Part shown: piece by piece, positions 40,358 through 62,830 of the stretch
How positions within the stretch are numbered: the first letter of the stretch is position 1
Layout of the letters: each line of letters begins with the position of its first letter
Assembly (NCBI RefSeq): GCF_035083965.1
Contig: NC_089735.1
Location: 7,156,001-7,220,000 of the forward strand
DNA: 64,000 nucleotides
Reading direction: 5' to 3'
Source: Branchiostoma lanceolatum
Taxonomy: Eukaryota; Chordata; Leptocardii; Amphioxiformes; Branchiostomatidae
The notes under the pieces: model-generated
The model's database searches: none
Told to the model about the DNA's origin: nothing
Seen by the model: the letters and a program-made list of their open reading frames with translations, nothing else
Position numbers and translations under genes: made by a program

Positions 40358-40389
<32 letters not shown>

Positions 40390-40472
40390 CGACGATGATG
40401 ATGATGACGACGATGATGATGATGATGACGACGATGATGATGGTGGTGTTGATGATGATGATGACGATGATA
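40309..40472. repeat. (GAT/GAC)n trinucleotide repeat
   Basis: Over 50 GAT, GAC or GGT triplets. The poly-Asp and poly-Ser ORFs over it lack any other coding feature. Confidence 0.95.
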
Positions 40473-40710: not shown

Positions 40711-41007
40711 GGCCATGTTGATTTGATTATATGGATGGCATTCACGCCCGCATCAATGTTCGTTCGTTCAAAAAAGTTTTCGAAAAGTCAAAAAAGAATT
40801 AAGATATGAAAGATCAAAAATTAAAAACCTGATTATTCGGTATACCATGTGTGTTTAGTTTTGGTCATCCTTCCTGGCCACGTAGACTTTACAATGAAGG
40901 CAACATTCTTTTTTGTTGGCCAAACCGTTTTCTATTCGCAAGCTCACATCATGATCAGTCTTCGGATTCTCAGAGGATGACATCCATATAATCCAATCAA
41001 CATGGCC
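40711..41007. mobile_element. MITE-like foldback element, family 1
   Basis: The left end GGCCATGTTGATTTGATTAT is identical to the copy at 39324. The right end is AATCCAATCAACATGGCC, one mismatch from the inverted partner. Flanks are TTA and TAA. 297 bp, so shorter than the neighbour copy by about 100 bp, with different interior deletions. Confidence 0.85.
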
Positions 41008-41787
41008 TAAATGTACTAGTTTGGAACGTTGTCACTTGATTGACAAACGCACAAACTACCGGCGCTGCATCCTGTGGATAGGTTTCTGCTGACAAGAAGA
41101 CATTACCGCGGGAATACAGTGATCATGCCTCGTACCCTTTTCCCACCCTGCACCCTTAAAATGCCCCTACCCAGGGTTCGAACTGACCAGTTCGCATCTA
41201 CACTGAAGAAAATAATTTTAGTCCAGTGACTTCTAGATTTTTACCGAATGCCTTCTAGAACCATTACCGTGCTTAATTTCAGCATTGGGTACACCTGCAC
41301 CATTACACGGTGGGGTTTTCAGTCCTCACAAGGGAGCCTTGCACACTAGTTATCGACCGTTGTGATGTCTGGATAAAATGTTATCTTGTCCTAATAATAA
41401 AGAGACGTTCTTTGAAAGAAGAACGATTGTTGTGGAACATGAAAGAACCAACAACGATTGATGTGGAACGTCACAAGAACGACGCTCTTAGGAAACACTT
41501 GTTTGAAAAGAAAACAAAACCGTTCGTGTTCTATCGAACGGGATGAGTCGAACGAACGCTGTGAGTTTGCCGGCTCGTATTGAATCGTTTCATGATTTGT
41601 TTTCGTTGGCTTGCCATGTAAGCAAATCTGTAGGGATACCGACAGTTGACGTCATCGTAGACGCCAGCTGAAACGTTTAGGGCACGGTGCATACTTGTGG
41701 AAAACCGACCCTTGAACGGCACATCACCTGAAAGAATGAAGGATCAGAGAATCGTCGCGATGTAGCACGCGCAGGCTGTTTTCAGCA

Positions 41788-44700
41788 ATGTGGAACTTAA
41801 AGATTGTGCTTTTGGTGCTTCTCAGCATCGGATCGTCGTCTGTAGTGGAGGGGGTCCTACATAGACAGGTGAGTGTGATCTAAAATCAACAATTCCCAAC
41901 TAACACTAACTACTAAAACGCAACTAACCAAGGAAACGTGAAGTTCCCACTACCTTTTAAAAATGTTTTGAAGATGTTTCACCGCCAAGACGTTTCGCCA
42001 TAACTCTAACCCTAACCATAATTTCAATCCTAACCCTAATTCATCTCCAGCACTAACTAACGATAACCCTAACAATAGAAATTTTAACTACAAGCTTCGG
42101 ATGAAAGCTCATCATTCTGTGTTGGTAGAGTACATATTGTGAGGTTTTGAGCTTTGATCCAGCACAAAGAGGGGAAGTTACTGTGAATTTTCGGTTGGAA
42201 CTCCGACCTTCCTCAGATGTCTGATTGCGCTGAACGCAGGAAGCCGGAAGCCTAATAACTAACGTTACAAGTTAAATAGATATACAAACAGTGGGTTTAT
42301 TTGAAATTGATCTTTTCGGTGCCTTTGTCTTACATGTACGACCTACAGGAAAAGAAGGGGGAGACTCAAACAGATACCGTGTACAACAACAACAACACCC
42401 AAGATTGCGGTTCTCAGAAGAAAACAGGATCAGAAGAGCCCCCTAGTGAAGGGACAGTTAATTACAGTATCCTGAATCTGCGGAACAACGGACCAGTCCA
42501 GTCCGACAGGAAACAACTGAGTGAGTACAGGGACACTTCCACTAATCCACATTGAGAATATTTTTTTGGCGAAGCTTCAGGAGCGAGCTTATTTCGGTTT
42601 AGCGACTGACAAGTACACACATTGTATCGCACACGGAATCCACCACACGTAAAATAGAAAATAGAACAAAGCCTTTTGTCATTGTTAATTCTTTCGGTGC
42701 ACTTCAATTGTTTATTAGTGTTATTTCCCATTCTCCTATAGTTGAAACTGACCCTTTGGATAATCATGGTCTTACGCTTAAGACTTACGATGGACAACAA
42801 CATGCAAATGAAGCACGGGTGGAAAGAACGAAGACATCGACAATGGGAAGCAAAGAAACCGGACAGGGGAAGCGCAATAAACGGAGAGCCAGATCTAGGG
42901 GGGCACGTCCCAGACCTAAAGGCGCACGTCACAGACCTAGAGGGGCACGGCCCAATAAGCGACCTAGAAGGCCCAAACCACCAAAGCCAAAGAAGACAGC
43001 AAAAATTAAAAAGAAGCCGGAAGACCAGAAGATGAGCGCGAAGGCCCCAAGGAAAAATAAAGCCAAGCTGATAGAAGAACGAAAGAAGAAGGAAAGGGAA
43101 AGGAAAAACAAGGAAATGGAAAAACGACAGAAGCAGAAGAAGGAAATGGAAAGGAAAACGAAGCTGGAAGACCAGAAAAAGAGCACAAAGACCCCAGCTA
43201 AAGGTGCTCGTCCCAGAGGTAAAGGGCCACGTCCCAGAGGTAAAGGGCCACGTCCCAATAAGCGACCTAGGAGACCAAGGAAAAACCCACCAAAGCCAAA
43301 GAAGATAGCAAAAATTGAAAATAAGCTAGAAGACCAGAAAAAGACTGAGAAGATGGATAAAGCCAAGTTAAAAGAAGAACGACAGAAGGAGGAAAAGGAA
43401 AGGAAAAAGGAGATGGAAAAACGACAGGAGAAAAAGGAAAGGGAAATGAAAAAGAAGGAGATGGAAAAACGACAGAAGGAGAAAAGGGAAAGGGAAAGAA
43501 AAAAGAAGGAGATGGAAAAACGACAAAAGGAGCAAAAGGAAAGGGAAAGGAAGAAGAAGGAGATAGAAAAACGACAAAAGGAGGAAAGGGAAAGGGAAAG
43601 GAAAAAGAAGGAGATAGAAGAACGACAAAAGGAGGAAAGGGAAAGGGAAAGGAAAAAGGAGATAGAAGAACGACAAAAGGAGCAAAAGGAAAGGGAAAGG
43701 ACGAAGAAGGAGATAGAAAAACGACAGAAGGAGGAAAGGGAACGGAAGAAGGAGATGGAAAAACGACAGAAGGAGAAAAAGGAAAGGGAAAGGAAAATGA
43801 AGGAGATGGAAAAACGACTGAAGCAGAAGAAGGAGAGGGAAAAGAAAAAGGAAGAGACGGAAAAGCGACAGAAGCAGAAGAAGGAAATGGAAATGAAAAA
43901 GATGCTGGAAGACCTGAAAAAGAGCACAAAAACCGAAAGCAAGGCTGTGGCTGAAAAAGTGACACAGACGAAGAAAGAAGTCCATGGTACGAAAGGACCA
44001 GAGGTGATGCAAGAGAAAAACAAGAGCGCAGACAAAAAACAGAGCGCAAGCGAGGCCAGTACAGATGAGGGAGAAGGAAAAGGCGGTACCACGGCCTCGC
44101 AAACCACCAACGAGGCTGAGAAAGCGTTGTTTGGAATGTTGAAGAGTGAAATGTTGGGCGATAGAGATGCCGAAAAAAAGGCAAAACACCTACCAGCCCA
44201 GGAAAGAAAAGAGAAACCAGGCCATGAGAACTGGAATACGCCTTTTGAAAAGGCAGTTGAAGCCATTGCACGAGGGCGGAGGCGGGTTGAGAGCGGGTTA
44301 CTTGCATTCAGAGTTGCCCAACATTCTTTAGCATCGGATAAAACAAGGCCTGAAGTAGAGTGGGGTAAGGGACTAGTAGAGCAGGGTCTGCAGATCGTGA
44401 AGGAGGGAGAGCAACAACTCAATAACTGGCTCGGACTTGGCTTGAAATCACCCGACATGCCAACTTCAAAAGTTCAGGAGAAGGACTTTGGCCTGCAAGA
44501 ACAGAGTACAGCGACGACAAAGTCACAGAACAGCTATGGCGGTGGAGAGGAGCCGACCGAAATGGACTGGTTGGCTCACAGAGCAAAGACAAGCATGGAT
44601 GTTGGAAACGGTAAGAATGTGAAGAAGATTAAAGGAGCGGTAGGCGGAAAAGAGGGAACTGGAGCGCTTGGTCAACTGAAGGAAGGTTTGAAGAAGATCA

Positions 44701-45296
44701 AAGAAGGTCTGAGTCTACAAGAAGCTGGGCAGAAGAATGTTGGCACCAAATCTAAAGGAAAACAAGACAAGGCGAAGGTACAACAAGGGTTAGAGGAGGT
44801 GAGGGAAGGCGTGGAAGACGTGGAGAAGGGACTGAACGTAGTGATGGTTGGAAAGAAAGAAGTAGAGGAAGGAGTGATGAACATTGGAGACACTACGGAG
44901 AACGAGAAGCACGGGGAAGACGTGGGAAACAAGGGTGAAGACGACCTGAAAGCATTGCTGGGTCTGAATGGGTTAAGAAAGGTTCCTCTTTACCATTTCG
45001 GAGGTAACCCCTTCGTTGACCCCACACCGACTGAACACGACATGTTTCCGCAACGCATGAAGAGCATGATCGAGTCAACATCGCCAAAACCTGCCCAGAG
45101 GACCCTGTTCTACCCGAGCTATCTTCAGGTGCCGCAGGCGGGTACAGTTCCAGCGTCTTCCGCAAGGAGCGCTCCACAACAGAGAGGCAACAACAAATCG
45201 GCTGGTGGGAAACCAGAAGATCAGAAACGCCAGGCGCTGGGAGGACCAACAGTACCAACAAGTCTCAGCGGCAAAGACCTTCTGAAGGTAGTATGA
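41788..45296 (+). CDS. Secreted Lys/Glu/Arg-rich low-complexity protein, paralogue of the 57.7-62.8 kb gene
   Basis: Exons 41788-41868, 42349-42520 and 42742-45296; joined 935 aa. Exon 1 is a signal peptide: Lys then a Leu/Val-rich core and S-S-S-V-V-E-G. Exon 2 (57 aa) contains YNNNNTQDCGS with a sequon and ends in phase 1 on a single A. Exon 3 has no introns. It starts with short acidic text, then a basic segment with R-P-R-G-K-G-P-R-P and N-K-R-P-R-R-P (about residues 135-168, repeated about 260-300). Two E/K/R helices follow (the second about 295-480), made of units like KEMEKRQKEK-RERERKK. A non-repetitive region (about 570-790) has amphipathic G-L-x-x-(I/V)-x-E-G repeats, and a Pro/Ser-rich tail ends the protein. 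Predicted to enter the secretory pathway; the function is unknown to me. Alternating charged residues predict a long single alpha-helix rather than a globular fold. Confidence 0.85.
42001..42078. repeat. Degenerate telomere-like (CCCTAA) stretch
   Basis: TCTAACCCTAACC, TCCTAACCCTAAT and GATAACCCTAAC occur within 75 bp in intron 1 of the Lys/Glu-rich gene. Short and diverged, so probably a chance or relic interstitial repeat. Confidence 0.5.
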
Positions 45297-46370
45297 ATGT
45301 ATCACTACGTTCTCAGTGGTGGGGTGTAGGGGCGTTTATTGTAGCCTTTTTTTTACTGTGATCCTTCCGTGTTCATTGGTGCCCATCAATATTACCTCAG
45401 AATGTCAAATATTCTAGTATTCTTAATAATCATGAAGAGATCAAGTCAACACTTCAGTATTCGTCGTTATAAACTTCCTGGCACGGTTGACCAATTACTG
45501 ACGTGACGTATCTGTAAAGGCACGCACGTACCAATGATAATGTCACGTGTCTGTAACTCTCGCGAGTGTACGGTCGGAAGCGATTGGTCATCATTAATTC
45601 TGAAAAAGTCGACAGTAGTCCTTGAAAATTTGATCCGTGTATACCCTAGTGTTGGAAGAAAGTCCAGCATTGTACTAGTATTCGTCGTTGTTTGTACAAT
45701 ATATCAAAGTGTCATTACTAATCTGTAGGTCATCTCATCTTGGGCAGAAGAGTTGAAATGCAATTTTACTTATAACGCTATGTAACCTACATATTTATCT
45801 ATGCCATTCTGAATCAATGTTCTGCAATTTCCAACACAAAAATTGGACTTACCCAGATTTTCGACTGATTTCCAGTCTTTGTAAAGGAATGACGCTTTCT
45901 GTGGATTTATGTTCTTGATCACCTTTTATAAAAATTCTCCTCGATCAAAAAAGAATGTAGCTAACACAATGCTTGGACGCAACACATTCAACCCCTTTTT
46001 TCACTCTGCCCCACGAAAGGAGATCAAAGAACTCCAAAACGAAGTTGTGGAACTGGAGGCTAAGAAGGAGGGCAAGGGTCAACCCAAGAAAGGCAGGCGC
46101 CATGTTAGAAATGTCGGATCTGAGTGAACAAGATCATCACACACTCAATCTGCAGCGGGAAGATTCCCACTGTACAGATGGCGACTGGGTGGCTGATTTT
46201 CTTGGATCTAATAAAAGACGATCTGTGATCTACTTTCCCCTGATTATGAATGAATGAATGAACGAATGGGCGAATAAATGCCTTAAATGTACATTTTTGC
46301 CCCACTGGGCTAAGTATATGTCACATATTAACAGACATATACATATTCATGTGTAAAAAAACGTCTAATA
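45297..46370. other. Intergenic stretch
   Basis: No family-level coding signal. A small frame at 46013-46127 (I-K-E-L-Q-N-E-V-V-E-L-E) looks like a coiled-coil end followed by ATGAATGAATGAA repeats; it may be a retroelement tail. Confidence 0.4.
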
Positions 46371-46378
46371 TACTCTTA

Positions 46379-46668
46379 CTAGACAGTACGTTCGGCTTCC
46401 TCTCGCTTCTTGGTAATCGTATAAGTGTAGGAGGCTGTATAATTAGTTAAGAGTTGGTTTATCGAAGGCTGCATGGAATAAAAAAAGTCTCTGAAGTCGG
46501 AGAATTTACTTAACACAAAATCGAAAGGAATGATTCTATCGCTATCATACAAAGGACATTCTACCGTAAAGTGTACTTCGTCTTCTACTTTACCTAAACT
46601 ACACTCTAGAGAAGTGTGGTTATGTTTTCCAGATCGATTCGCAATCTGTGACAACTGATTTTTAGTTT
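46379..46668 (-). mobile_element. Non-LTR retrotransposon C-terminal fragment
   Basis: The minus frame contains C-S-L-G-K-V-E-D-E-V-H-F-T-V-E-C-P-L-Y, the conserved Cys/His end motif (C-x-x-G-x-V-E-D-E-x-H-F-x-x-x-C-P-L-Y) of many LINE reverse-transcriptase proteins. It ends at a stop at 46379. The coding sequence is not continued upstream, where a (GT)n array begins. Confidence 0.75.
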
Positions 46669-46687
46669 TGTATGATTCTCCGAAATC

Positions 46688-46690
<3 letters not shown>

Positions 46691-46770
<80 letters not shown>
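46691..46770. repeat. (GT)40 microsatellite
   Basis: Eighty bases of uninterrupted GT. Located 266 bp upstream of the proposed start codon of the following gene, so in its promoter or leader. Long perfect GT tracts can adopt Z-DNA. Confidence 0.98.
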
Positions 46771-46774
<4 letters not shown>

Positions 46775-47036
46775 CAGCGTTCATAGAGTTATTATGATAA
46801 TACCGATTAAAAAAAACGATGGCCTACCGCCTATGGTGGAACCGATTCCCATTCGAGTTCTAACCGGCTATGTTCGCGTTATTTTGTTCCAAATTACGTC
46901 GCCCATATCGACACACAACGGTTTCTATAAACAAAACTACACGAGTCCCTGGTTACCGACTGCGCAACATAAAAAGAAGACTTGTCAAGCGCTATAAGCA
47001 CTCAGTTCCGTCCCCAAATATCACAGAGTCTCAAGC

Positions 47037-49915
47037 ATGCGGCAGACGACTGACACCGCCGTGTCTAGCACTACATCTGGCGGAGGAGATAGCATGGAGC
47101 CCCGGTCAGGAGACGCAGTCACTGTGGTGAATCTTGGTGGAGGCGACGCCGATTCTTCTGTCAAAGACGTTCAGCTTCTACAACTTTACAACAATCTATG
47201 GTTTGTTAGTTCACCGTATTCTACAAATCCGGAAGAAGTTAGTTAATTGTTTGATAGTCACAGGTCAAAAGTGTTGTTTTCTTTGTCTGTCACTGTTAAG
47301 ATTTCTATCCAGACTTTGGGAATTAATCATTATCACCATATCATGACGTAATGTAATTCTTGAATTGTGGCATCGAATAGCCGAGTGGCTAGGCTAGCGG
47401 ATGCGAGGTCTAGAGGTTGCGGGTTCGATTTTGACGTTCATGGCTAGTCGTTGTGTCATCGGGAAAGGCCCTTTACACGACTTTTCTCACTTCAACCTGG
47501 TGTGAAAATTGCCTGACTTTGGTCGGGTAGATTAACGGAGGAGAGGGTTGGGCTCCACTTTCGAAAATCGTGCTCTTGACACAGTGGATAATTTCAAAGG
47601 ACTTCTTTTACTTTATAAATACATAACATTCATAACACCTTTTTCATATGTTTCGTTTTTGTTCATGTTTTGCCTTACGACTAATATGGTACATGGTATC
47701 CAGAGGTGACGTTATAGCCCCATTCCACTAGGACGGCGCTCTCGCCGCGTACTCTCTGCGACCTAAGATTTAACAGAGCGCTCGATGAATTTCATAGATA
47801 AAAAATGAATTTTTTCATGTGTTTTGGTACATTATCAGTAATACTTTTACATTTTGCACGATATTCCAAGTATGATCAGGGGTTACGCAATCCGATTTAG
47901 GTCGCAGGGTGAGCGCAGCGCGATCGCCGTCCAGTGGAATGGGGGCTTTAACGGAGAATGATCCCCAAATGACCCAAACTCCCACGGAATAAGCATCGTT
48001 TCCATATCTCCGCAGGTATGGGCAGATGTGTACGCTTCCCAAACTACAGGACAGGCCCGCAGGAGGTCAGCGGGCTCTCTCGGCGTCTACCCCGCCCAGG
48101 CCGATCCAGTGCCGCCTTCCGATCTCATCGCCCCTGTCCATTGGTAAGAGTGCTATGTCACCATCGGTCTCAACCACACATGGGATATACACAAGCAGCA
48201 GTGCACACAGTCTCTCCAGCGACACCGGGCTGTTTTCTCCTCTCTTTACTTCAACCCCTGCTAAGATCCAACCAGCGAAGCAAAGCTTTGGTCCACCTGA
48301 CCTCAGCCCGTTTTGTTACGTTCAGGATACCGCAACGTCAATGGTTATGTCAAATTCTTTGTCGGCAGAACGTCACTTCGTGTTTACTACGTCGACGCAT
48401 CTCGCAGTGCCTGTGTACAGACCGCATAGTGGTTTGGCCCCTACACCAAAAGGAGGACACCAGACCGTGCTAGGAAATTGTCTATCACCGCCATCTTATG
48501 TGGGTAAAGCACTTACCCATGCAGCGGAGAGAGTGTTTACAACAATCGCGTCTCATACGTTGCCCAAGCCGCCCTGTACAACTCCACGGATAAGCGGGCC
48601 GACCTCCTTGTCAAATGTTTCTTCTTCTGTGGAAAATAAAGGCAAAACACAAGATTCTAACCAAAGGAAGGAGGTGATGATTCCACAGCCACGATATCAA
48701 GTCGGACCACGGAGGTGTCTGGCTGAAGAATTTGGACAGCAACAACTTCGAAAACATGGTAACCATGCCGCAAAGGACGACGGGAAGGACGACAGCGAGT
48801 GCTCGGTGCTTCCCAACACGCCTTGCACAAACTCGTTCCCAGGTCAACATGACTCGTGCACATCTCCAATCGGTGAAGACGGTCCATTCAGTGTACCTGT
48901 GGTCACAGCAGTTCGTCCAAGCCCAGTATTCGTAACCAGTCCTTGTCTACCCATGCGCAAGCCTAAATCTGCGCCAGCCATCCCGGCGTATTTGACAAAG
49001 TCCCACGAAGATAGACCCTACATGCCCTCCCCTGTATATCTGCTGTCACATAAGCAGTGTTCAGCCCAGCCCCACAGCCAGCTGCAGTCTTCAGGCTTGT
49101 CCATTACCAGGCCAATACCCGGCGTGAAACCCTCCGTCAGGATGCGAGCAACGGTTCCACAACAAGAGAGTTCTTCTTCTTACGCGGTCCGGCTCATTCC
49201 CAGATCCAGCCAGGCCCTCACCTATCTATCCAAGGGAACTGCGCGGGTAGAGAAGACAGGAGTTTCTCCTATACTTCTCTCGGGGAAACCTGGGTCTTTC
49301 CCGCCACATCGCGCTAACAAGACCGTTGTTCTTCTGTCTCCCACGGGGCAAAAAAAGAAGCCGTTTGTGGAAGGAAACCGGCCTCACTACAACACACCAC
49401 GCAGCCATTCAGCCTCGGACAAAATCTGTACCCCACCGGAGATACATTCATCGGATTTCGATCCGTCCGTGTTCCTGGTAGCTTTACCGGCTGCGGAGAT
49501 GGGTGTCCGCAGGAAAGAAAAGCCTGGCTCTTTTATCTCAGGAGCACCCTCCCCACGGAAAGATTTAGCGCGAAGTCTCCAACAGAGCACTGCAGAAAAT
49601 GGGATCACGATGTCTCAGTTGCAGAGCCATGCCACGAAAGATCCTAACCCCGATGTTCCTTTGGATATTCTCTCTAAATACCATGAAAACATGTCAAGCT
49701 ATGGTCGAAAATGTAGAGGCGCAACAAAACTGTATGGGTTCTCTCTCGCTCCCATTCCACAACCTGAAGGATATCACGCCATTTGCCCGCACTGTGGCAG
49801 GGACCTTTCTAGGGGGAAACTTCAGCCCATCCCCGCTACTGACCCCATTAGTTGGTACGATAGGAACTGCTACATCTGCCAGCAAAACCCTTACAAAGCT
49901 AGATGTTACACGTAA
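47037..49915 (+). CDS. 687-aa protein of unknown function with terminal two-CxxC region
   Basis: Exons 47037-47200 and 48016-49915. The junction TATG|gtttgt ... cgcag|GTATGG joins CTA-TG to G-TAT and gives L-W-Y-G-Q-M without disturbing frame. Most of the protein is Ser/Pro/Thr-rich and probably disordered, with scattered basic words (KPSVRMRATV, RPSPVFVTSP). The last 60 residues are different: YGFSLAPIPQPEGYHAICPH, then CxxC (CPHC), a D-P-I-S-W-Y-D-R-N spacer and CYIC. Four cysteines in two CxxC pairs suggest a zinc ribbon-like fold. No signal peptide or membrane segment, so intracellular. I do not recognise the family. The upstream exon is weaker than exon 2, and further 5' exons are possible. 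Confidence 0.7.
47369..47600 (+). mobile_element. tRNA-derived SINE in an intron
   Basis: The head imitates a tRNA with box A (TAGCCGAGTGGCTAGGCTAG) and box B (GGGTTCGATTTT) at normal spacing. The body GGCCCTTTACACGACTTTTC and GGTGTGAAAATTGCC is shared with copies at 28017 and 34903. It does not close a full cloverleaf, so it is a SINE rather than a tRNA gene. Confidence 0.65.
47711..47952. mobile_element. MITE-like element, family 2
   Basis: GTTATAGCCCCATTCCACTA at the left and the reverse complement of the right end (GTTAAAGCCCCCATTCCACT) form terminal inverted repeats that continue with GGACGGCG / CGCCGTCC. 242 bp, ending 63 bp before the acceptor of exon 2 of the CxxC gene. Confidence 0.75.
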
Positions 49916-50069
49916 AATTTTCAAGAGCGAGGTCTAACAAAGCTAGATGTAGCACGTAATGTTATGAAGGGTGAGTTCTAACAAGGCGAGATGTTACACG
50001 TATATATAACAACTTTAGAGCAATTTCTAACAATGTTATATTTACACGTTATGTTAAGAGTGAGTTTCA
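49893..50069 (+). repeat. 44-bp tandem repeat spanning the stop codon and 3' UTR
   Basis: Unit 1 (49893-49936) includes the last six codons and the TAA. Unit 2 (49937-49980) repeats ACAAAGCTAGATGT with few changes. Unit 3 (49981-50029) has ACAAGGCGAGATGTTACACG. Unit 4 (50030-50069) is more diverged. So the C-terminal coding tail was duplicated into the 3' UTR. Confidence 0.85.
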
Positions 50070-50244
50070 ACGTATTTGTGATAGTAGTTGAACACTTTCA
50101 AAACTCTCCATATTTCTTCCGTCGTTGTAGTGAATGACTTTCCATCATTCGTATGTGGTGGTTAGACATCTATGATCTTCGAGTATGCGTCGATGAAGGT
50201 TAGACATCCAGGTAATAAGTTCGGTCCAGCTACCTTAATAGAGC

Positions 50245-50250
50245 AATAAA
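50245..50250 (+). terminator. Polyadenylation signal of the CxxC gene
   Basis: AATAAA about 330 bp after the stop codon; the first canonical hexamer downstream on this strand. Confidence 0.5.
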
Positions 50251-50656
50251 CGCCGAAGCAGCTGTCACTGGCATATAAAATACGATAAATTATTGAATAG
50301 AAAATTCATGATGATACTTTTCTTTGGTTACGTCGATTGTAACTTATCACATCAATAAACTGTTACTGAACTTTGTGACTTTTTTTCCATGGAAGTATAT
50401 CCGTATTGTCGAAAACATGCTGGATTTGGTTAGTGCTGAAGTATATTGGTCAGTTTCATACTAAATAGAGTAAAGAGACTGAAGACATTGTAGAGTCGTT
50501 GCAGTGGAGATCCTTCTTGCTTGGTGGCGGTTACACTACCTTTGCTGTAGTTGGAGTCAGAGTAGTCAGAGTACTTGTGACCGGGGCATGTACACATCAT
50601 AGTGAAGATGGATGTGGGAACCTGTGACAAAAGCTGCCATCATGTTGAAATACATT

Positions 50657-51200
50657 AAGCCACAGCAACTAAATTTTATGGATGATATCCCCTGCAGACT
50701 TCAAATTTAGTGCGCGCGGGCAAAAAGAACAAGATATCCACATTTTCAAACTTGAATACCATAAAGCATGTAAGAAGAATTGAAGCGATAAAACACGGTA
50801 TTAGTATTACACCAACAAGTCTTTTATCACTGTATTCAATAATACAGTAAACATCCGCCGACTGATGTCAACATTAAAATTATAAATTCATATCTGGGTT
50901 TGTATAACACATCAACATCAAGAAAGCGGAGACAAGGTTTCCCGTACGGTGGGCACGGGAGTCTCATGAGTCATGAGGCAGACTGACTAGATAATGCTGG
51001 CTCTGCTCACTTCGTATCAACTGAAGTCGTCTACACTATTGTTGTCCTGACTGTCTGGCTGAATTACCGTGCCCCCGTCTTTTCATTCTGTCTTCAGCAG
51101 ACAGACAGCTAAACGATGGTCTACTCAAACCGCATGACACTAGTTTCTTCATCAAACCCTGTTATAGGATTTGTTATCTAGTACTTAACTTAATTGAAGG
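50657..51200 (+). repeat. 530-bp dispersed repeat, copy B
   Basis: Same orientation and order of words as 37470-38010 (for example CATGTAAGAAGAATTGAAGC and GGGTTTGTATAACACATCAA here). It carries small insertions, such as a TGATGTCAACATTAAAATTA stretch. Followed by AGGATAACACATCGAATTGC, which is also found after the third copy at 56235. Confidence 0.75.
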
Positions 51201-54200
51201 ATAACACATCGAATTGCACGTAATTAGACAGACGCAAAATACCCCGCCAAACTAACTGTCAAAACTGTTTAATGTGGATACACCCCAAGATATCCTAACA
51301 TCACCCCAACGTTAAATTTCCGAGAATAATTTAATGGAATCTGATGTATGGGTGCAAATGGTAAGGTTGCCAGAGACCAAAAGTCAATCTTTTTTACTCT
51401 GAACTAGGGAAAAATGAAGTTATTACTCCGGGAAGGAGGTGTGACCTCCTTCTGGGGTATTGGGATTGCTTTTGCTTGCGCGTTCGCAGCTATAACTCAC
51501 GATCCCGTCGTCGTATCGGTGTGTAACTTGGCATATAGTGTGCCTGGTTGGGTGTGGTGATGCACGATGTCTTAGTTACACCGTAACTACTTTTATCGTA
51601 AATGCAATACTGTAATTGCACCCCTATAATTAATGCTATGTCCCACTGCCCTGCCGTAGACACCGTGCTATAATCCGTTCCGCTTGAGTAGAATACTTCA
51701 GGCAGATACGGGGTATAATTCTTTCCAACCTGCTGTGATCGTATAGTCACTGTTACATTGAAAAATAGACAACGTGCATCACCACACGCAACCTAGGAAA
51801 CGATATACCAAGTTACATACCAATGCGGCAACGGGAATTGTGAGTTTTGGCTGCGAACATGTGCCGAGTGAGTTCCAGTCTGTGTATTAAGTATGCCGTG
51901 TCCCTCGCAACTCGCATACAGTATGTGCGCACGGGACGGACGATGTATTTTTACGCACAGTGTGAAAATGGCAAATCTCTGGACCTTCAAACTTACCACA
52001 CTTGTAGTTTATAATACGGAGGCTGTGACAATGTAAAAAGTTTACACAGGGGATGAAAGATTGTTGAGAAATATCTCTCAGAAAAGTGCGCGCGCCAGTG
52101 TCACTTCCGGGTGGTTAGATCCGGTGACCTTTGACCTTCGTGAAATGTTACGATAATATAGATTTGCCTTTTTTATTGCAAATAGCTTGATAGCTATAGA
52201 TCAGGCTGGCCTGCAATAAATTGTGGAAAGAGGATTTACTGCATATTTGTGATTTCTGATGCATCTTAGTTGTAACTTGTAAGGCTGAATGGTTCGTTGA
52301 TAATTGAAAAGGGGCCATCTAGATCTAACTTTGTGACTTTTCCCGGAATTTCTAGATCCCATCTGTGCCATGCTGTAAAAACATACTTTTCAGCAGGTTG
52401 ACCACTCCTGTATTGAAAGAAAAAGATAAACAAACACTTTTTCTTTACTTGCTCTAAAACACTACTTGGACTGAGCAGAGATGCAATTTGTGTGGGTCAA
52501 TACTTGTACATACTATAAATACTTCACGGAGAATTGTGTCCTACGGACTCTTGTTAAGTCTTCAAATTGTGCACAAACTTACAACAAAAACAATTTCAAC
52601 ATCGCTTCAAGATTTCTTAAAATAAGAATAGAAGCAGAATAGCTGATTCTATTCTATTCTGACATGATATGCACACTGGCATAAGTGAATACATGCATCT
52701 TTGAAAAGACGTAATGCAAAATTTCCAAGGGAAAATGGAAACAGTTAAGCCACGTTATCCACTCGTATGTTAAAAATTTTATGGGTACAGGTTTACAAAA
52801 TAACCTCTATAGACAGATGAGGAAAGCAGTATACGCGACGATCAAATGTGTTCTGTTCGGTATCATCTCCGTAAAAAAAATTGTCAAAGAAATGTAAATA
52901 CGGACTGGAACATGTGTGAAGGAGCCCTTACTTTCCAAATTGCAGAAACACAGAAAAAGTTAGTGCTCACCTCCCTGACGAATGTTCTTGAGCGGGATCG
53001 TATCCAAGAAGCCGACAGAAAGGACAGCGATTGCCTTGCAAACGACCCTCCACAGTCGGTACTTTGAAAGCTGTTATGTGCACTTGCCCACTCTCTGCCA
53101 GTCGTGCTCCTCTATATGTGGAAGGGGGTCTATTACCGGTCTGAAGTCTGGATGGGAGTCGACTGCTGAAGTTGTAACTGTGCCTACAGTTTATATAGTA
53201 GAGACTTAATGGACAGGTCGATGTAGCAAAGCTAGTGACGTGTGTTTAGTTTTTGAAATGCTTCAACGGTGACGCATTCAGTCAACTCTGAAATAAGCCA
53301 GGTGTGTGGATGGAAAACCTTTCTTTTTTTCTGATACAATAGTTCAAGGATATCATTAACGAGATGGCGTGACTTGAGCCTTCATATTTTACCTATCTCT
53401 GACGTATTTTTTTCTACTTAAGCATTATCATAAGCTTTTCATCATTACTAACCGGTAAACTGATGACGTTTATAGTATTTTCTCCTACGCAAGCATCATT
53501 ATACTAAGCTTACAATTTTCATCATTACTGACCGATGACGCTCATGGTAGCAGCCACCGTAATAGCAGCTTAGCTTTGTTAAACGGCTTTTCAGTCCTTG
53601 CGCACATTAGATAACTTGGTAGTTATAGGTGAAGGTTATAAGAATGAATTCTCACTACCTCCCTCCCCAGAAAAAAAACCTGAACACTCTGACAAACATT
53701 CTCCAAAACAAGTCTTCAAAGAAAAATGAATGTACAGCTACATGCAGCAAGCGCTGTTGCGAACATTAGGCTCAATGTAGAAAAAAAGGCCATGTCTTTA
53801 AGTTAGATAAGAAAAACATATTCTATAAGGTTTTTAAGAGAATACCGAACTTTTCTTCCTCTGGTCGTATTTTTTGTCTTAAAAAGCCCACTGCACTTTA
53901 CTCATCTATGCAACACAATATACATATCACAAAAGTTAAGACCCCAAAGGCATGAGATTGGTCCATTTCATTACCATTCGTTTAACAAAACAACAACAAA
54001 GCAACAACACAATAAGAATGGCACCAACGAGCAGGCTTCATGTTGTTATTGATACTCTAGCTAGGCATCGACTTATAAAATATGAAGTTCTTAATGTGTC
54101 AGTATCAATAGTTGCCTGGCACATTTCAAAACGCTGAGAAAACACCCGACAATAGTGACGGAGCATCGAAAGAGGGGAAGACAAAAGAAATTATTGAAAC

Positions 54201-55234
54201 ATAAGATAGTATAAGTGAATATGATGGATTGAGACTAGCAGTGGCAATACTGAGGACAGAAGGACAGTGGAGAAAGACTGTGCACAGATCTTTCTTGGTG
54301 CCCCAAAACAGCCAACTGGTCGAATTTAAGGGATGGGTGAGTTGAGGACAACCTGACGTGCGACACAATGGTCACTCAGCATTAAGTCAAAGTCCCTGAT
54401 GACATGATTGATACAACTGGCTAAGGAAAGCTATTCTTCAACTTGTTAGCTCCTAATCTCTAAATAACCGAGAACAATGTTGATATATTTGCCAAAGATT
54501 AGGCTCTTAGTAGAAGAAAGAGACAGGAACAAACGGGTTAAACCATCGACGCCACATGAAACGGAAATGCGGACATTATAGGATCTCCTGCTGTTTTTTC
54601 TAAAGTAAAGCATCGTTTAAGAAATCTTGAAATGACTAACATTAGTGACTGGTGACGTTAATGACATGCGACGATGGCCGTAATGTTAGTTAAGATGTTT
54701 TTAGGGTCTACGCAATGAGCGACATTTTCAGTTCGGGTGATGTCAATGATATTAATTATTTTTGCTCAATACGTAGTTTTTAATCAAAGATCTGATTAAT
54801 AAATGGACTCTGCATGGAGAGTAAGTAACACCACAGACCAGCAGCTATTTGAAGCAATGGGCTGATTTAAATCAAGGCCCCTAATCAATGATTAGAAGAG
54901 GCTCACAAAACGTTAATATGTTTGAAACCGTCTTTGAAAACGAGGACATTTCCTATGACTTTGTCGGAGATGTGAAATCCATGAGAAGAAATAGCCAGCA
55001 CAAAAACTTCAAAGTAATCAGCGTATGGTGTGTGAACCACGGTTTATCATTTCCAATCTGTTCAGAGAAAACTTTGCAAGCATTGAATCGTTGTCCGTTA
55101 AACTCAAAGTGCTGTGCCTGTTGTCATCGGACTGAGACTTGTAAACTTGGCGAGTCTTCGTTAATTACACAGCGCTTTTTCAGAGCGAATGACGTGAGTT
55201 TAATTTTTCAAACGCATCATTGGCGTTCATGTGT
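51201..55234. other. Intergenic stretch, no genes seen
   Basis: AT-rich unique sequence. ORFs at 52846-53067 and 54888-55394 have no domain features, and the latter is extended only by a CCTT repeat. No clear splice-site-framed exons. Confidence 0.5.
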
Positions 55235-55391
55235 CCTTCCTTCCTTCCTTCCTTCCTTCCTTCCTTCCTTCCTTCCTTCCTTCCTTCCTTCCTTCCTTCC
55301 TTCCTTCCTTCCTTCCTTCCTTCCTTCCTTCCTTCCTTCCTTCCTTCCTTCCTTCCTTCCTTCCTTCCTTCCTTCCTTCCTTCCTTCCTTC
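55235..55391. repeat. (CCTT)39 microsatellite
   Basis: An uninterrupted polypyrimidine tract of about 157 bp, with mirror symmetry that allows triplex (H-DNA) formation. Pro-Ser-Phe-Leu and Lys-Glu-Gly-Arg repeat ORFs over it are artefacts. Confidence 0.98.
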
Positions 55392-56880
55392 TAATAGCCG
55401 AGCTCCAATTCAGCCAGTGGGCTGTCATTGTTCGCGACATGTGAATCCATCAATCGATCAATCAATCAATCAACCAACCATTACTACTTTCGAAAAAATA
55501 CAACTTTGCTAGAAAGTAGACCATGCTATCTGGCTAGTTTGCAGCATCGTAAGAAAGAAGCTGACACACGGTTTGTAACGGCAACTGCAAGTTTATTCAG
55601 TTATAAGAAGAATAAATACGAGGCTTTCTATAATACACTAGAGAAAGGCAGCACGCAATAAATCGTGCAACTTTCATAAAATGAAACAAAATGAAATATA
55701 ATAGAATGAAATAGGATGAAATATCCAGATCGTTTTGATCAAAGTTTCAAGATTTGCTAACTCCACAATTTCTTGTATTTCTTATTTTCTGTTGCATATT
55801 GTGTGCATTGACTGCATATGATTTATTGTACACTCACATAGTTAATGTAAACTTGTTGTCATAGTGGTTGTCAGTGTGATAACCTGCGAAGATGCAGATG
55901 GGCTGTTTTATTTGATTAAAGACCTATACGATTATGCTCTTACAAGCTAAGTACAGGTCATGGTGATAAAGCTGAGGTACAATTAGTGATATCAGAATGT
56001 GGTATCTTACTAGAGCTACAATCATTATGACTAATGTATAATAGTACCTATAGGCTCAACTTTTTCTCACAAGACTATTCATCATACCATACTATTTATC
56101 ATTCATTTATCATATCATACTGTTTATCATCATTTATCTATAAATTAAATTTTACAGACAGCTAGACAATGTTCTTAAACCACATGACATTAGTTACTTC
56201 ATCTGACCCTGTTATCGGAGTTATTAGAAGTTTCATTCAAGAATAACACATCGGATTACACGTTGTTGATATAATGGCACAGCAAGTATAATTTTGGATG
56301 ACCTTACGAAGGTCGCTGTCTTTTTATTGTGTCAATAAAGATAATTTTGTTTATTCCTCGCGCTTGCGATCTCAGATAAAACAATGGTGTTTATCGTGTC
56401 TGTGGCGTCAAACAATGCGCTTTTGGGGCTTCACGGGTCTACCAGACATGTCGCAACTTGGCTGTTTTTTATGTATAGTTGTAGAACCCCCTTAATTTAT
56501 GACGCGCAAACACTTACGGTCGGTCATCTAATATGCAAACGCTTACTTACTTTATCCTGCCGCCTGAATAGCCTAACACAGGATTAGGAGATAAATTAAA
56601 CTTAATGCATCAAAATGGTGAATGGGAATCGGGACTATATATCTTAGCATTTTAACAAAGAATGAATTGAAATTTTTAAAAAAATGTCGTTTTTTAATTA
56701 ACTTTAAGCTTTCTGGCCACTCAGATTTCATATTTGTTTTGAGTGTGTGGGTACAACTTATTTTTTCGCACGCTCGCATCAGTTTTGCGTTGCTCAAAGG
56801 ATGTCATACATTTAAGAGCACAGCCGAGATCCAGATGGTTAGACATTTCCTGCTAGTGTACAAAAGTAGTTGCAAAAGAA
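55392..56880. other. Intergenic, with a third partial copy of the 530-bp repeat
   Basis: Positions 56155-56270 match the 3' end of the repeats at 37470 and 50657 (AGACAATG, CACATGACATTAGTTACTTC, ACCCTGTTAT, AATAACACATCG). Around 56690-56815 are right-arm words of foldback family 1 (TTTTTTCGCACGCTCGCATC). Otherwise nothing recognised. Confidence 0.55.
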
Positions 56881-56889
56881 AATAGTGGG

Positions 56890-57175
56890 CCCAAATTTAC
56901 ACCACGTCTTCCTTATTACCTCAGCTGCCTGCCACCAGAAAATGTCCAGAACAGAAGATACAATAAAACGGAAATTCTGCTACAGAACCAATCTCACACA
57001 CTAGGGAGCCCAAACCTTGACCTTCGATTTCCCAACACCTACCAAATATCATTACTTTAGGTTCTAAAGTTATGCTGGCCACAAATACATCTATACGAAA
57101 ACAAACACACACACACACACCCATACACACACTCACACCAAAACAATCCTCCATTTTTCATGGAGGTAAAGATAA
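56890..57175. repeat. Dispersed repeat copy (ACCAAATATCATC family)
   Basis: Words ATTTACACCACGTCTTCC, CTGCCACCAGAAAATGTCC, ACCTACCAAATATCATTAC, a CACACA tail and CTCCATTTTTCATGGAGG. Same layout as 27060-27370. Confidence 0.65.
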
Positions 57176-57687
57176 TGATACAACAACTGAATGAAATGGC
57201 AGACGCAGTAGGTTTATTTGTTTTGTAACGTAGTGTCAGCTGTCAGGGCAGTTAAGTAAAGGTGTATGTAACGGATTTTCGATATATCTTGGTACATTTC
57301 TGGATGTGTGACTTAAGTGTGAAGTATTTCCAGTCGTTGCTGCGGTCTATCTTGCAACTTCGTTCGTCTGAACTAGTATCGAATACCTTACTACAACACG
57401 TTCCCTGATTTGTAGCCAGATATGTTTGAATGATGCAGGTTTAATAAACTTGTGACCAAAGGGACCTTAGCGATCGGGGAAGAATCGTATTGATACAAGA
57501 ATGGAACTTACCAAAATATTTAACGATGTCTTATTATCGAGTTAAAAAAAACTACTTGTGCTATATGTGGCCTATATCGGCTGTTTCTGACAGGGATCTG
57601 AAATTTATATTGAATTGCCATAAATGCTATAGTGTGTGACGTATATCATAACCATTTCTGCAGCCTGCCATCTCCTTTTCAGAAGCT

Positions 57688-60600
57688 TCAGGGCCAGCCC
57701 TGCCACCTCGATGACCTCGAGCGCTGTCGTCTGTCGGAAGTGCCCTGAGACCTCGTGCGCTGTCGTCCGCCGGAAGTGCCCTGAGACCTCGTGCGCTGTC
57801 GTCTGCCGGAAGTACCCTGAGACCTCGTGCGCTGTCGTCTGCCGTACGAACTCTGAGGTCTTGTGCGCTGTCGTCTGCCGTACGAACTCTGAGGCCTCGT
57901 GCGCTGTCGTCTGCCGAACGTACTCTCAGGCCTCATGCGCTGTCGTCTGCCGAAAGTACGTTCAGGCCTCGTGCGCTGTCGTCTGCTGGAAGTACCCTGA
58001 TACTCCTTGCGCTGTCGTCTTCTAGAAGTACGATCAGGCCTCGTGCGCTGTCGTCTGCCGAAAGTACGTTCAGTGTTTGTGCGCTGTCGTCTGCCAGAAG
58101 TTCCTTCAGGCCTCTTGCGCTGTCGTCTGCCGAACGTGCGTTCAGCCGCTTCCGTCTTCTTACGCTGACGCCTGCCAGAAACCCCACCTTGGCGTCTGTC
58201 TTGACGTCCAGCTTGCCCCTTTCTTCCTCCCCTTGCTCCATCTTGAGACCGCATCCGCTGGCGTCTGTCTTGGCGGCCAGATTTACCCATTCCGAGGCCC
58301 CCTCTCTGGCTCTTCCTTTTTTGCTGTCGTTTTTTCTTTCTGCGGGATTTTGCGGGAGCTCCAACTTCCCCCCGGGACGACTTCTTTGTCTTTCGTTTCT
58401 TCTTCTTTCTCCGTTTCACAGACTTCCCCGTGTCAGTTTCACTTTCCTTCCGGCGAGAAGCTTTATTCCTTCTTCGTTTCTTCTGTGGCTCTTCAGCGAC
58501 CTCTCCGAAAAAGCCTTCGTCCTCTTCTTCTTCTTCTTTTTGTTTCCTCCGGCGAGAAGCTTTATTCCTTCTTCGTTTCTTTTGTGGCTCTTCAGCGACC
58601 TCTCCGAAAAAGCCTTCGTCCTCTTCTTCTTCTTCTTTTTGTTTCCTCCGGCGAGAAGCTTTATTCCTTCTTCGTTTCTTTTGTGGCTCTTCAGCGACCT
58701 CTCCGAAAAAGCCTTCGTCCTCTTCTTCTTCTTCTTTTTGTTTCCTCCGGCGAGAAGCTTTATTCCTTCTTCGTTTCTTTTGTGGCTCTTCAGCGACCTC
58801 TCCGAAAAAGCCTTCGTCCTCTTCTTCTTCTTCTTGTTTCTTCCGGCGAGAAGCTTTATTCCTTCTTCGTTTCTTTTGTGGCTCTTCAGCGACCTCTCCG
58901 AAAAAGCCTTCGTCCTCTTCTTCTTCTTTTTGTTTCTTCCGGCGGGAAGCTTTATTCCTTCTTCGTTTCTTTTGTGGCTCTTCAGCGACCTCTCCGAAAA
59001 AGCCTTCGTCCTCCTCTTCTTCTTCTTTTTGTTTCCTCCGGCGAGAAGCTTTATTCTTTCTCTTCCCTCCTTTTCCTCCCTTGCCTCCTTTTCCTCCTCT
59101 TCCCTTGCCTCCTTTCCCTCCTTTTCCTCCTCTTCCATTGCCTCCTTTCCCTCCTTTTGTTCGTTTCTTGCGTGGCTCTTCAGTGACCTCTCCAAACAAA
59201 TCTTCCTCTTCTTCTTCTTCCTCTTCATTTTCTTCTTCGGGGTAGTCGAAAACCATACGTCCTTCCTTGTCTGTATCATCGATGTCCTCTAAGCCGTACT
59301 CCAACTCGTCCTCTATATCGTATTCCAAAATTTCGGCATCCTCAGCTGCCACACGTAGACGATCCGCTACTTCTTCCAGCATGTCATAGTCTTCCTCCAT
59401 CTCCATCTCTTGTTCTTCAAGTTTTTCTTGCAGCAGGTCCTGTTCTTCTCGTTCCTCCATTTGCCGATCTCGCAGCTCCTCTAGCTCCTCTGCCACACTC
59501 TCTTCTTCTTCTTCCAGATATGGTTTCTCGGCTAGCTCCTCTCCTATGCTTTGCTCTTCTTCTTCCAGATATGGTACCTCGGCTAGCTTCTCTTCGATGC
59601 TTTGCTCTTCCTCTTCCATGTATGGTTCTTCGGCAAGCTCCTCTTCGATGCTTTGCTCTTCCTCTTCCATGTATGGTTCTTCGGCAAGCTCCTCTTCGAA
59701 GCTTTGCTCTTCCTCTTCCATGTATGGTTCTTCGGCAAGCTCCTCTTCGAAGCTTTGCTCTTCCTCTTCCATGTATGGTTCTTCGGCAAGCTCCTCTTCG
59801 ATGCTTTGCTCTTCCTCTTCTGAATACGGTTCCAACTCTTCGTCTTCGTCTTTACCTTCTTCTTCTGCTCCTTCTTCTTCTCCTTCTTCTTCTCCTTTTC
59901 CTCTCTTTCCTCCTTTCCCTCCCTTTCCTCCTTTTCCATTCTTTCCTCCCTCTCCATTTTTTCCTCCTTTTCCATTTTTTCCTCCTTTTCCATTCTTTCC
60001 TCCTTTTCCATTCTTTCCTCCTTTTCCATTCTTTCCTCCTTTTCCATTCTTTCCTCCTTTTCCATTCTTTCCTCCTTTTCCATTCTTTCCTCCTTTTCCA
60101 TTCTTTCCTCCCTTGCCTCCGTTTCCTCCCTTTCCTTTTGCTCTTCTTTTGACCCTTTCCTTCCCAGCGGCGTCTGAATCCAGTTGTTTAGTATCAACTG
60201 ACTCATTTTCTGCTTCCTCCAGAGGATGGTCTTCAACTGCAACACATTGTGACAAGAAAGCAATATTCAATCAACAAGTCTCAGTTTTGTTTAAAATAGT
60301 TGCAGATGCTGACAACCCGCCAAAAGTACAAACATGATTGGCAACATAAAAAGATGTTGCCATGGAGATGGTGGTCTCTGTTAATGTTTTCGTTTTTTAG
60401 CCCACATGCAAATAAGGACCTCGCATTAAATCATATCAGTTTATCACCTTTTCTACCCAAATAACACAAGTTGTCCAATGTATGAAAGTCTTGTTTTCAA
60501 AAAAAAAGGATATCGTACCATTTCCTCATAGATTATGCAAATGAGGCCTCATATGTAAGATTTGTGTCTAATAGTGGCCACATTTACTTAACTTTCAAAT

Positions 60601-62830
60601 GGTGCAAGAATGAAATCCCCATCATTCACCACTATGGATTTATAGTATTTTGTCATTAATTGTGCAAATGAATAATTAATTTTTATAATTGATATCTATC
60701 GATATTCATCTCTTTCTCAGTTACATATGTCATGTGTTTGAGAGTCCCATAATGGAATGCAGCTGATTTATAAATTTTCCTCATTGATTATGCAAATCAG
60801 ATATAGATTTGCATAATTGGCATATGATTATGTAAATCCGCACTTAAGCTATATACACACCAAAAATTATGATGATCCGTCAGCCCCTTCTTTCGTTCTT
60901 CTCTTTCAAAGTTTGAGACAAAATCAGCTCCTGCAGTTCCAAAAAAAGCCGCTAGGGGTCCAAATCTACAGGACCTATTTTCCCAACAAAGGGAATCCAC
61001 CACTAAAAAAATCATGACCATAGCATGTTCAGAACACGAGATTTGAAAAGCGAAAGTTCCCCTGCAGTACCATAGAAACTCGCTAGGGGGCTTTAAATCC
61101 AATCATTTCAAGCTCTCACACAAACCTACCCACCTACAAAATGTGAAGACAATTCATCCAGGCATTCTTGAGTTATCGTTCCATGGACTTTCACGTTCCT
61201 GTACAATTCCTAGAATTCTTGCAAACTGCACACAATATATACCAATTTGGCTCGCCCCTGAGGCGTCGCCAAAAACAAACGTCTTGTTATCTCCGTTGTA
61301 CTCTGAGACCAACTCAACTTTTCAAGATGGGTGATCAAGGCAAATACCAAACTTTAGCCCATGACCAAAGGTTCTGACCATTTTGTCTAAAAGCAAATTG
61401 AAAACGGAATTTCACTTGTCTTGGAATGCTCTAGATATGATGTCTTACGTAATAGGTTACGCACATTTTTTGCTTAAGTACAACAGATTTCAAGACACTT
61501 GATGCCACTAGCAGATTTAAACATAGCTTTAGATTGGGCAACTTTCACGACGCAAAAAATAGATTAATATATCAAGTTGACATTAAGCTGGTGTGTTACG
61601 CCGAAGGGCGGTTATACCGGCTATACAGATACAGAAGTATTGCTTTGCTATTAGAAAATGTACTGAAACACACGATTAGCCCTACCTACTTGTATCGAGA
61701 TATTAGAGATTCACGTATGTTAGCCTATATAGTAAGTCGATTTAGATTCATTTTAAATTTTTCTTTTGTAGTTTGTACTTGACCGTAAAAATGTCGCTGT
61801 AGTTTTTATTGTGTCGATAGACATAAATCTTCTAGTAAAAATAGACAGGATTCTCAAAACAGGTGACAGCATGTTTCGACTGGTCAATTTTTTTTACATA
61901 TGTAACGGAAGATTACTTACTGGATTTGATCAGTCCGCCATCCAAACGATCTGAGTCCCTGCGATTTTCGAGATGCTGCGTAGGGGGCGCTTCCACTAAA
62001 GAGCCGACATCATGGACGGTGTTGTTACTGTAGGGGGCGCTGCTATCAACTGTCGCGTCCTTTTGCTACAAGCCACAGAGGAAAAGAATTTCTTAGCAAA
62101 ATATTTTCATGACAAGCCCACTACGCTCTTTTTGTAATGAATGTATGTTTATCTAATAGAATGAATGGTTTATTGTGCAACTTGATAAACGCGTACGTTT
62201 CAAAGCCTGAGTCGGCTAAATTGCAAGTTCACACGAGGTAAACACACATGAAGGTATTAGCTGACTGATGGAACGTTGATTACAATTATTATAACAAACA
62301 AGTATTTGAAAAATACCATAAACGTAATCTACAGCAATAGAATTCATGAGTTAAACATTTTGAATTACTTGTGGTAAAAGAAATTCGGAACAATCAAACG
62401 AATGCGAATAATCATATAACAATAATAAAGTATTCAACTTTTGAATACTTTATCTATTTGTCCTTCTAATTGCAACATATAAACCTAACACGGAGAGTTT
62501 TGCGTTATTATTCTATCAAACGCGCTGTATAAATCTGATCAGAAAGCTTGTTTATTGCTGTGTATAATGGTACTCCAATACCTCCATGAGCTAACATCTC
62601 TGCGTGAATAGAGCGTGCTAATTCACTTATGGGAATTTATTCATTACATATCGGAGTGTCTTGTTTGAAAACGATCCGAAAGGGTTTCATAAAAAAGATT
62701 ACGTTGTTATGGTATCATATCCATGAGGAAAACATTGCTTAGTGTCTGAACTAACCTGAGAGATGACCTCTGCAGCAGACGAGGACGCGATGCTGAAGAA
62801 GACCAACCACAGAACCGCCGAGCTCAGCAT
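57688..62830 (-). CDS. Secreted tandem-repeat polyampholyte, paralogue of the 41.8-45.3 kb gene; possible multi-peptide precursor
   Basis: Minus-strand exons 62830-62756, 62065-61921 and 60236-57688; joined 922 aa. Exon 1 is a signal peptide (L-W-L-V-F-F-S-I-A-S-S-S-A-A-E). Exon 2 (48 aa) has PYSNNTVHDVGS with a sequon and ends in phase 1 on A. Exon 3 opens I-E-D-H-P-L-E-E and then runs through repeat blocks. First G-G-K-N-G-K x about 11 (about 106-180). Then acidic 17-residue units with E-P-Y-M-E-E-E-E-Q-S x 7. Then a non-repeat acidic region (Y-D-M-L-E-E-V-A-D-R-L, about 330-410), a G-G-K-G block and six 33-residue units with D-E-G-F-F-G-E-V-A-E-E-P. A Lys/Arg block follows, and finally thirteen 12-residue units starting Q-R and mostly ending G-R-R. 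It should enter the secretory pathway. No known family; the function is open. Confidence 0.85.
57691..58167 (-). repeat. 36-bp coding tandem repeat (QR...GRR units)
   Basis: Thirteen units encoding 12 residues each (the first has 15). Examples: QRTRPERTFGRR, QRTRPQSSYGRR (twice), QRTRSQGTSGRR. Eight of the twelve complete units end Gly-Arg-Arg. The last unit ends W-Q-G-W-P and stop. The same DNA word (GTGCGCTGTCGTCTGCCG) recurs on the + strand every 36 bp. Confidence 0.95.
58470..59080 (-). repeat. 99-bp coding tandem repeat (GFFGEVAEEP units)
   Basis: Six units of 31-33 codons, period 99 bp in most (units shortened by one or two Glu codons in two cases). Each alternates an E/D run, F-F-G-E-V-A-E-E-P and a K/R run. 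High nucleotide identity between units suggests recent expansion or ongoing homogenisation. Confidence 0.95.
59510..59840 (-). repeat. Acidic 51- to 54-bp coding tandem repeat
   Basis: Seven units around P-Y-M-E-E-E-E-Q-S-(I/F)-E-E-E-L-A-E. The four central units are nearly identical in DNA. They are preceded (on the minus strand) by the G-G-K-N-G-K block at 59930-60140. Confidence 0.9.
59930..60140 (-). repeat. 18-bp coding tandem repeat (GGKNGK units)
   Basis: About eleven 18-bp units encoding Gly-Gly-Lys-Asn-Gly-Lys, flanked by G-N-G-G-K and G-G-K-R-G-K variants. On the plus strand the unit reads CCTTTTCCATTCTTTCCT. Confidence 0.95.
60237..61920. other. Intron 2 of the repeat-protein gene, with dispersed repeats
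   Basis: 60520-61200 holds a copy of the long dispersed family (GATTATGCAAATGAGG, ACCAAAAATTATGATGATCC, GCCGCTAGGGG). 61200-61900 is unique AT-rich sequence with no features. The acceptor is TGTGTTGCAG at 60246-60237 and the donor GTAAGTAA at 61920-61913, both read on the minus strand. Confidence 0.7.

Follow-up and report, generated by a model that had tools for sequence, protein, structure and literature searches.

The window, by which we mean the whole 64,000-nucleotide stretch of Branchiostoma lanceolatum DNA analysed here, holds two neighbouring, convergent genes, A on the plus strand and B on the minus strand. In gene A, exon 1 (41788..41868, 27 codons) encodes a signal-like peptide (MWNLKIVLLVLLSIGSSSVVEGVLHRQ) and ends in phase 0 at the donor CAG|GTGAGT. 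Exon 2 (42349..42520, 57 codons and one base) encodes part of a leader with an N-N-T sequon and ends in phase 1 at A|GTGAGT. Exon 3 (42742..45287) carries the end of the leader up to a furin-type site (residues 85-133), then a basic R/P/K block, an E/K/R single-helix-like block and a helical region. A predicted exon 4 (46020..46127; EIKELQNEVVELEAKKEGKGQPKKGRRHVRNVGSE, stop) would be joined to it in phase 0 across AAG|GTAGTA...CGAAAG|GAG. Gene B follows the same plan from the other side: exon 1 (62756..62830, 25 codons) encodes the signal-like peptide MLSSAVLWLVFFSIASSSAAEVISQ and ends in phase 0 at CAG|GTTAGT, and exon 2 (61921..62065, 48 codons and one base) encodes a leader part with an N-N-T sequon and ends in phase 1 at A|GTAAGT. 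Exon 3 of B (57688..60236) contains the leader end up to the furin-type site (residues 74-105), a GGKNGK block, an acidic PY.EEEEQS block, alternating acidic/basic 32-33-aa repeats, a 12-aa QR..GRR tail and the stop. The signal peptides were assigned by eye. The encoded proteins comprise 968 residues (A, with the predicted exon 4) and 922 residues (B).

Splice sites were consensus-like, with donors CAG|GTGAGT and TGA|GTGAGT in A and CAG|GTTAGT and CCA|GTAAGT in B, and acceptors TACAG, TATAG, TGTAG and TGCAG. When exon joins and splice sites were read again, the exon coordinates of the initial annotation were confirmed for both genes, as was its plan: the signal-like exon closes with CAG in phase 0, the second exon has 57 or 48 codons, and the giant exon after it is entered in phase 1. 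This last entry reads A|TTGAA in both third exons. AG|TTGA occurs 38 times on the two strands of the window. In four cases it opens a phase-1 frame of 100 codons or more, namely at the third exons themselves (counted to the stop, 850 codons for A and 848 for B) and at two positions within these exons (345 and 835). The third exons, which had been described as the two largest coding exons, do lie in the two longest stop-to-stop open reading frames of the window (897 and 860 aa; next 640 aa). By coordinates the third exons encode 848 residues each, which was taken for chance. A 640-aa open frame (47993-49915, plus strand) lies between the two genes; it had no Pfam match and ends in a CPHC...CYIC cysteine pattern.

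A fourth coding exon, absent from the initial annotation, is predicted for gene A. Read through to its own stop, exon 3 would end the protein in ...DLLKVV, with more than 900 bases to go before the nearest AATAAA or ATTAAA. The donor AAG|GTAGTA at 45287 and the acceptor ...CCCCACGAAAG|GAG at 46019 join in phase 0 to give DLLKEIKELQNEVVELEAKKEGKGQPKKGRRHVRNVGSE, and an L-I-L-V-L coiled-coil heptad runs over this junction. The stop of the predicted exon is at 46125-46127 and the first AATAAA at 46210. The predicted exon 3 donor is weaker than the other donors. The best seven matches of the exon 4 peptide in the window were, outside itself, K/E-rich stretches. Gene B ends in exon 3, and no fourth exon was seen for it by eye in 55600-57800; with the predicted exon in A, the two genes would not have the identical exon architecture first proposed.

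The leaders of A and B were aligned as translated sequences and compared with shuffles (BLOSUM62, gap 11/1). The first 105 residues scored 78, with none of 2,000 shuffles as high (26.4 +/- 4.7). Exon 1 alone scored 36 (shuffles 19.4 +/- 3.8; 1 of 2,000 as high) and exon 2 alone 44 (shuffles 22.3 +/- 4.4; 0 of 2,000), which bears out the original observation that the signal cores and the second exons align. The first 40 residues of exon 3 scored 28 (shuffles 20.5 +/- 4.2; 127 of 2,000 as high) and were not significantly similar. With the signal peptide removed, the leader up to the basic site scored 64 (shuffles 29.0 +/- 5.3, maximum 62; 0 of 10,000 as high), and with the basic tail removed as well it scored 57, a value reached by five of 10,000 shuffles. 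Real sequence served as a further control: the window was divided in all six frames into 3,192 overlapping segments of 79 residues, and each was scored against the A leader without signal and basic tail. The best segment from neither gene scored 52 against 57 for the spliced B leader, while unspliced segments of B exon 2 scored only 46 and 43, below this decoy; the post-signal leader alone is for that reason a modest case.

The two introns of A and those of B agree in aligned position and in phase (0 and 1). Because intron positions played no part in the leader alignment, this agreement strengthens the argument for homology. In a MAFFT alignment, 37 of the 105 leader residues of B were identical in A. 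With tblastn in the window, the top match of each gene outside its own locus was the other gene, with weak E-values (exon 1, 0.28 and 0.25; exon 2, 0.072 and 0.18, the B exon 2 query also including the first 17 residues of exon 3). The second-exon peptides had been read correctly, including the N-N-T sequon, which lies at N42 in A and N39 in B; each leader has one further sequon (N65 in A, N84 in B). At the DNA level, comparison of 39000-46500 with the reverse strand of 56501-64000 gave one match of 51 bases (E 1.8e-7), overlapped on its A side by a dispersed repeat, and four that were short and weak (E 0.17 to 0.58). None of these matches marks a recent duplication. Homology of the leaders is supported by the translated sequences, if not overwhelmingly, and A and B appear to be old paralogues.

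The shared module extends past exon 2 into exon 3 and ends at a site that was not part of the initial annotation, RNKR|RA in A and RVKR|RA in B. Similarity resumes just ahead of it (GKRNKRRAR in A, GKERVKRRAK in B). The part of exon 3 that leads up to the site scored 36 between A and B (shuffles 20.8 +/- 4.0; 17 of 5,000 as high), or 42 with softer gaps (3 of 5,000 as high); the p-value of this extension is to be discounted, since it was chosen after the motif had been seen. We take R-X-[K/R]-R in these proteins to be a furin cleavage motif. It is found at four positions in A (129, 158, 259 and 595) and two in B (101 and 429), the first being the border site in both. Behind residue 100, shuffles gave 4.9 +/- 2.1 such sites for B and 2.1 +/- 1.4 for A, making the motif rare in B but not in A. 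The border motif could merely begin a K/R-rich body. In its translated layout, leader plus site is that of a prepro-protein, in which cleavage is presumed; as in furin-processed proproteins, the motif is present in both A and B, and at aligned positions.

The body of A begins with a basic R/P/K block containing a duplicated stretch, continues with 51-nt E/K/R repeats at 43390-43902 and a helical region, and closes with a coil tail; its net charge is +92. The helix contains 91 opposite-charge i,i+4 pairs (57.5 +/- 5.3 in shuffles) and is free of G and P over 188 residues, a combination which we regard as typical of a single alpha-helix. In its repeat units, sense-frame pN/pS was 0.30 (the initial 14 residues of 8 of the 11 units that follow from residue 296) or 0.31 (all 11), the lowest of six frames in the first set and again the lowest in the second. 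In the duplicated stretch pN/pS was mixed, 0.49 in one part (the lowest of three frames) and 0.68 in the other (not the lowest). For the helical region (44103-45287), AlphaFold run without an alignment gave helices only, with a mean pLDDT of 52.5; 74 of the 395 residues reached 70-90 and none exceeded 90.

The body of B consists of GGKNGK units, acidic PY.EEEEQS units of 17 aa, 32-33-aa units alternating between acid and base, and the 12-aa QR..GRR tail. Its blocks, two of which overlap by three residues, have net charges of +26, -110, +16, +6 and +82. Sense-frame pN/pS was 0.20 in the 17-aa units (7 copies), the lowest of six frames, and 0.10 in the GGKNGK units (10 copies), the lowest by a hair, one antisense frame giving 0.11 and two frames being undefined. 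The core of the 33-aa unit (6 copies) showed zero amino-acid changes and few silent ones, although the similarity among these copies is high enough for an antisense frame to be at zero too. In the 12-aa tail pN/pS was 0.90 (12 copies), two other frames being lower (0.56 and 0.85), and it was 0.86 without the odd last copy, two other frames again being lower (0.62 and 0.81). Constraint on the protein is thus suggested for parts of both bodies, but not for the B tail. Along with the gene models, the likeness of the leaders and the shared motif, the charge blocks and this constraint within repeats are directly visible in the DNA and its translation. A period of 51 bases is common to the A helix repeat and the B acidic repeat and was taken for chance.

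Neither body contains a cysteine, the sole one being C47 in the A leader. S-x-E, which we assume to be a kinase motif here, was not enriched, with 7 occurrences in B (shuffles 11.1 +/- 3.0) and 2 in A (shuffles 6.1 +/- 2.3), and a reading based on it was dropped. Of the 15 tyrosines in B, 11 lie within five residues of at least four acidic ones, a context that presumably corresponds to tyrosine sulfation; it was given up as little proof, the block being acidic throughout.

The printed sequences and repeat units support the view that the two bodies are of different kinds. It had been proposed that a secreted family keeps its leader and swaps its body. The kept leader, which scores above shuffles, the same intron phases and the unlike bodies agree with this proposal, but the putative family has only two members in the window. 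A swapped body is compatible with these two sequences, and ordinary repeat expansion with divergence would look alike.

The reading we favour, tentatively and with somewhat less than an even chance of being right, is that A and B are prepro-proteins whose conserved leader is cut off to leave cysteine-free polyelectrolyte bodies for extracellular matrix or mucus. The signal peptide would direct both proteins to the ER; behind it comes a leader with N-glycosylation sequons, about 111 residues long in A and 84 in B. A furin-like convertase would then cut at R-X-K-R-R, directly ahead of the body, and the body set free (about 835 residues in A, 817 in B) would be exported as a polyelectrolyte to serve in mucus or extracellular matrix. 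The A body would be a stiff and basic rod-like chain whose C-terminus is a coiled-coil tail, and that of B a chain of oppositely charged blocks. Secretion, cleavage and the extracellular structural role are all things that we infer from the predicted proteins. As a more speculative extension, and something of a long shot, A and B may represent an unnamed, lineage-restricted family of convertase-released polyelectrolytes that act as charge partners, the stiff cationic rod of A and the anionic block of B condensing on release into a two-component extracellular material.

The cleavage step is where another reading departs from this proposal: the proteins may be secreted paralogues in which the basic motif is not a processing site and the leader stays on as the N-terminal domain of a matrix protein. 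We consider this unlikely, though a serious alternative. Body starts rich in K and R make a basic motif at the border unsurprising, and further R-X-[K/R]-R sites occur in both proteins, in A above the shuffle mean (4 against 2.1 +/- 1.4); yet the first motif is aligned in both as R-X-K-R-R-A, and in B such sites are rare, with 2 in the body where 4.9 +/- 2.1 would be expected. More extensive processing, with B and perhaps A being a polyprotein cut to small peptides, for example amidated Q-R-...-G peptides from the QR..GRR tail, seems improbable. The tail contains 13 units starting with QR (the first of 15 residues, the rest of 12), and 8 of the 12 units with a successor end in G-R-R, presumably an amidation-type site. 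The 12-aa units, however, are without amino-acid constraint (pN/pS 0.90, or 0.86 minus the last copy), and no such units were seen in the printed sequence of A. Tandem amidated peptides were accordingly set aside, attractive as the QR...GRR motif is, the amino acids being unconstrained.

Two further readings reject either the kinship or the secretion of the proteins. To the first, that A and B are unrelated and resemble each other through similar signal peptides and low-complexity composition, we give little probability. The tblastn E-values between exons (0.07 to 0.28), the score of 52 reached against the A leader by an unrelated segment where the spliced B leader reached 57, and DNA similarity limited to one 51-base match and four short weak ones are what it would lead one to expect; it is contradicted by exon 2 alone (0 of 2,000 shuffles), by the leader up to the motif (0 of 10,000) and by the shared intron positions and phases. 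Many nuclear or cytoskeletal proteins are of low complexity, and the composition of A and B is like theirs, as it would be if the first exons were mispredicted and the charged bodies acted in the nucleus or cytoplasm. We regard this as very improbable, since both proteins have signal-like N-termini (by eye) followed by similar leaders, and open frames are combined with consensus-like splice sites. Of the readings considered, the prepro-protein remains the one that we prefer.

The plan proposed for A and B is known in kind from other precursor families. Conopeptide superfamilies are characterized by a short, disulfide-rich mature peptide. The conopeptide precursors of cone snails consist of a highly conserved signal peptide, a pro-region and a hypervariable mature part encoded by 1-4 exons, and one precursor given as an example is split over three exons (PMC7900195). 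In the printed sequence of the two genes A and B, a shared signal and pro-region likewise stand before unlike mature parts. Conopeptides, in contrast, are short, with an example of 64 aa, and have small exons; the bodies of A and B have more than 800 residues (835 and 817), lack cysteine and give no hint of a toxin. S100 fused-type proteins combine a short kept N-terminal part with a giant repeat exon, E/K/R-rich in trichohyalin, as do A and B, but their N-terminal part is an S100 domain and they are not known to have a signal peptide. Trichohyalin and filaggrin are epidermal differentiation complex proteins, filaggrin being of the S100 fused type (PMC12101200). No Pfam match to an S100 domain was found at E 0.1 for either leader or either exon 3, and neither protein had any Pfam match above cut-off. 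Secreted, disordered and fast-changing bodies behind a kept leader exon, as proposed here for A and B, are also found in the SCPP secreted phosphoproteins of vertebrates. To our knowledge, SCPP introns are all in phase 0, whereas intron 2 is in phase 1 in A and B, and the giant repeat exon of A and B is not the usual SCPP plan. Neuropeptide precursors contain a conserved repeated peptide between convertase sites, a plan that the 12-aa units of B do not follow, their pN/pS being 0.90, or 0.86 without the last unit.

Database searches placed the translated proteins in no named family of Pfam or NCBIfam above cut-off. Pfam gave nothing for the A leader, either exon 3 or A exon 4, and for the B leader one match under the cut-off (AcrF2, E 0.036), which was taken as chance; NCBIfam had no match to the second or third exons of the two genes or to A exon 4. 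Searched by sequence against the PDB, A 44103-45287 had one chance-level match to a designed helix bundle (E 0.19), while no match was obtained for A 42744-44102 at 1e-10, for B exon 3 at 1e-5 or for the second exons of A and B at E 1. A search of viral contigs with the leader alignment gave 109 pattern matches, none of which was confirmed. Such a family was not described in the titles and opening lines of abstracts in the literature searched, most subscription journals lying outside its scope, which is weak evidence of absence. If other lancelets hold the same leader with further bodies, the genes would offer a clean case of a steady secretion-and-processing module whose released protein is remade by repeat turnover. 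The leader and the R-X-K-R-R site could in that case serve as a search handle for orphan structural proteins, which may escape ordinary searches by similarity.

Several other features were observed in the window. Exons with antistasin, VWC and thyroglobulin type-1 domains (3534-13647, plus strand; four by Pfam, the others by eye) probably belong to one multidomain secreted gene. A leucine-rich-repeat exon (LRR_8; 16636-17475), followed by an Ig-like stretch seen by eye, has the IGF-binding acid labile subunit as its nearest PDB chain. A rhodopsin-type receptor exon (7tm_1) was identified at 23809-24228, and transmembrane-like exons were seen by eye downstream of it up to about 36,600, that at 31951-32178 being without a Pfam match; a DDE_3 transposase fragment (24875-25342, minus strand) lies between the receptor exon and these exons. 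An extended array with a unit of about 10 bases, similar to CTTTTGTAAA, occupies 33450-34150, where 216 codons are open in one antisense frame. The dispersed repeat, with the core GATTWTATGGATGACATCC (pattern by eye), was found on both strands, at 16151-16169, 37486-37504, 39338-39356, 39688-39706, 40725-40743, 40975-40993, 50672-50690 and 63293-63311, that is, 8 matches at up to 3 mismatches where 0.09 were expected.
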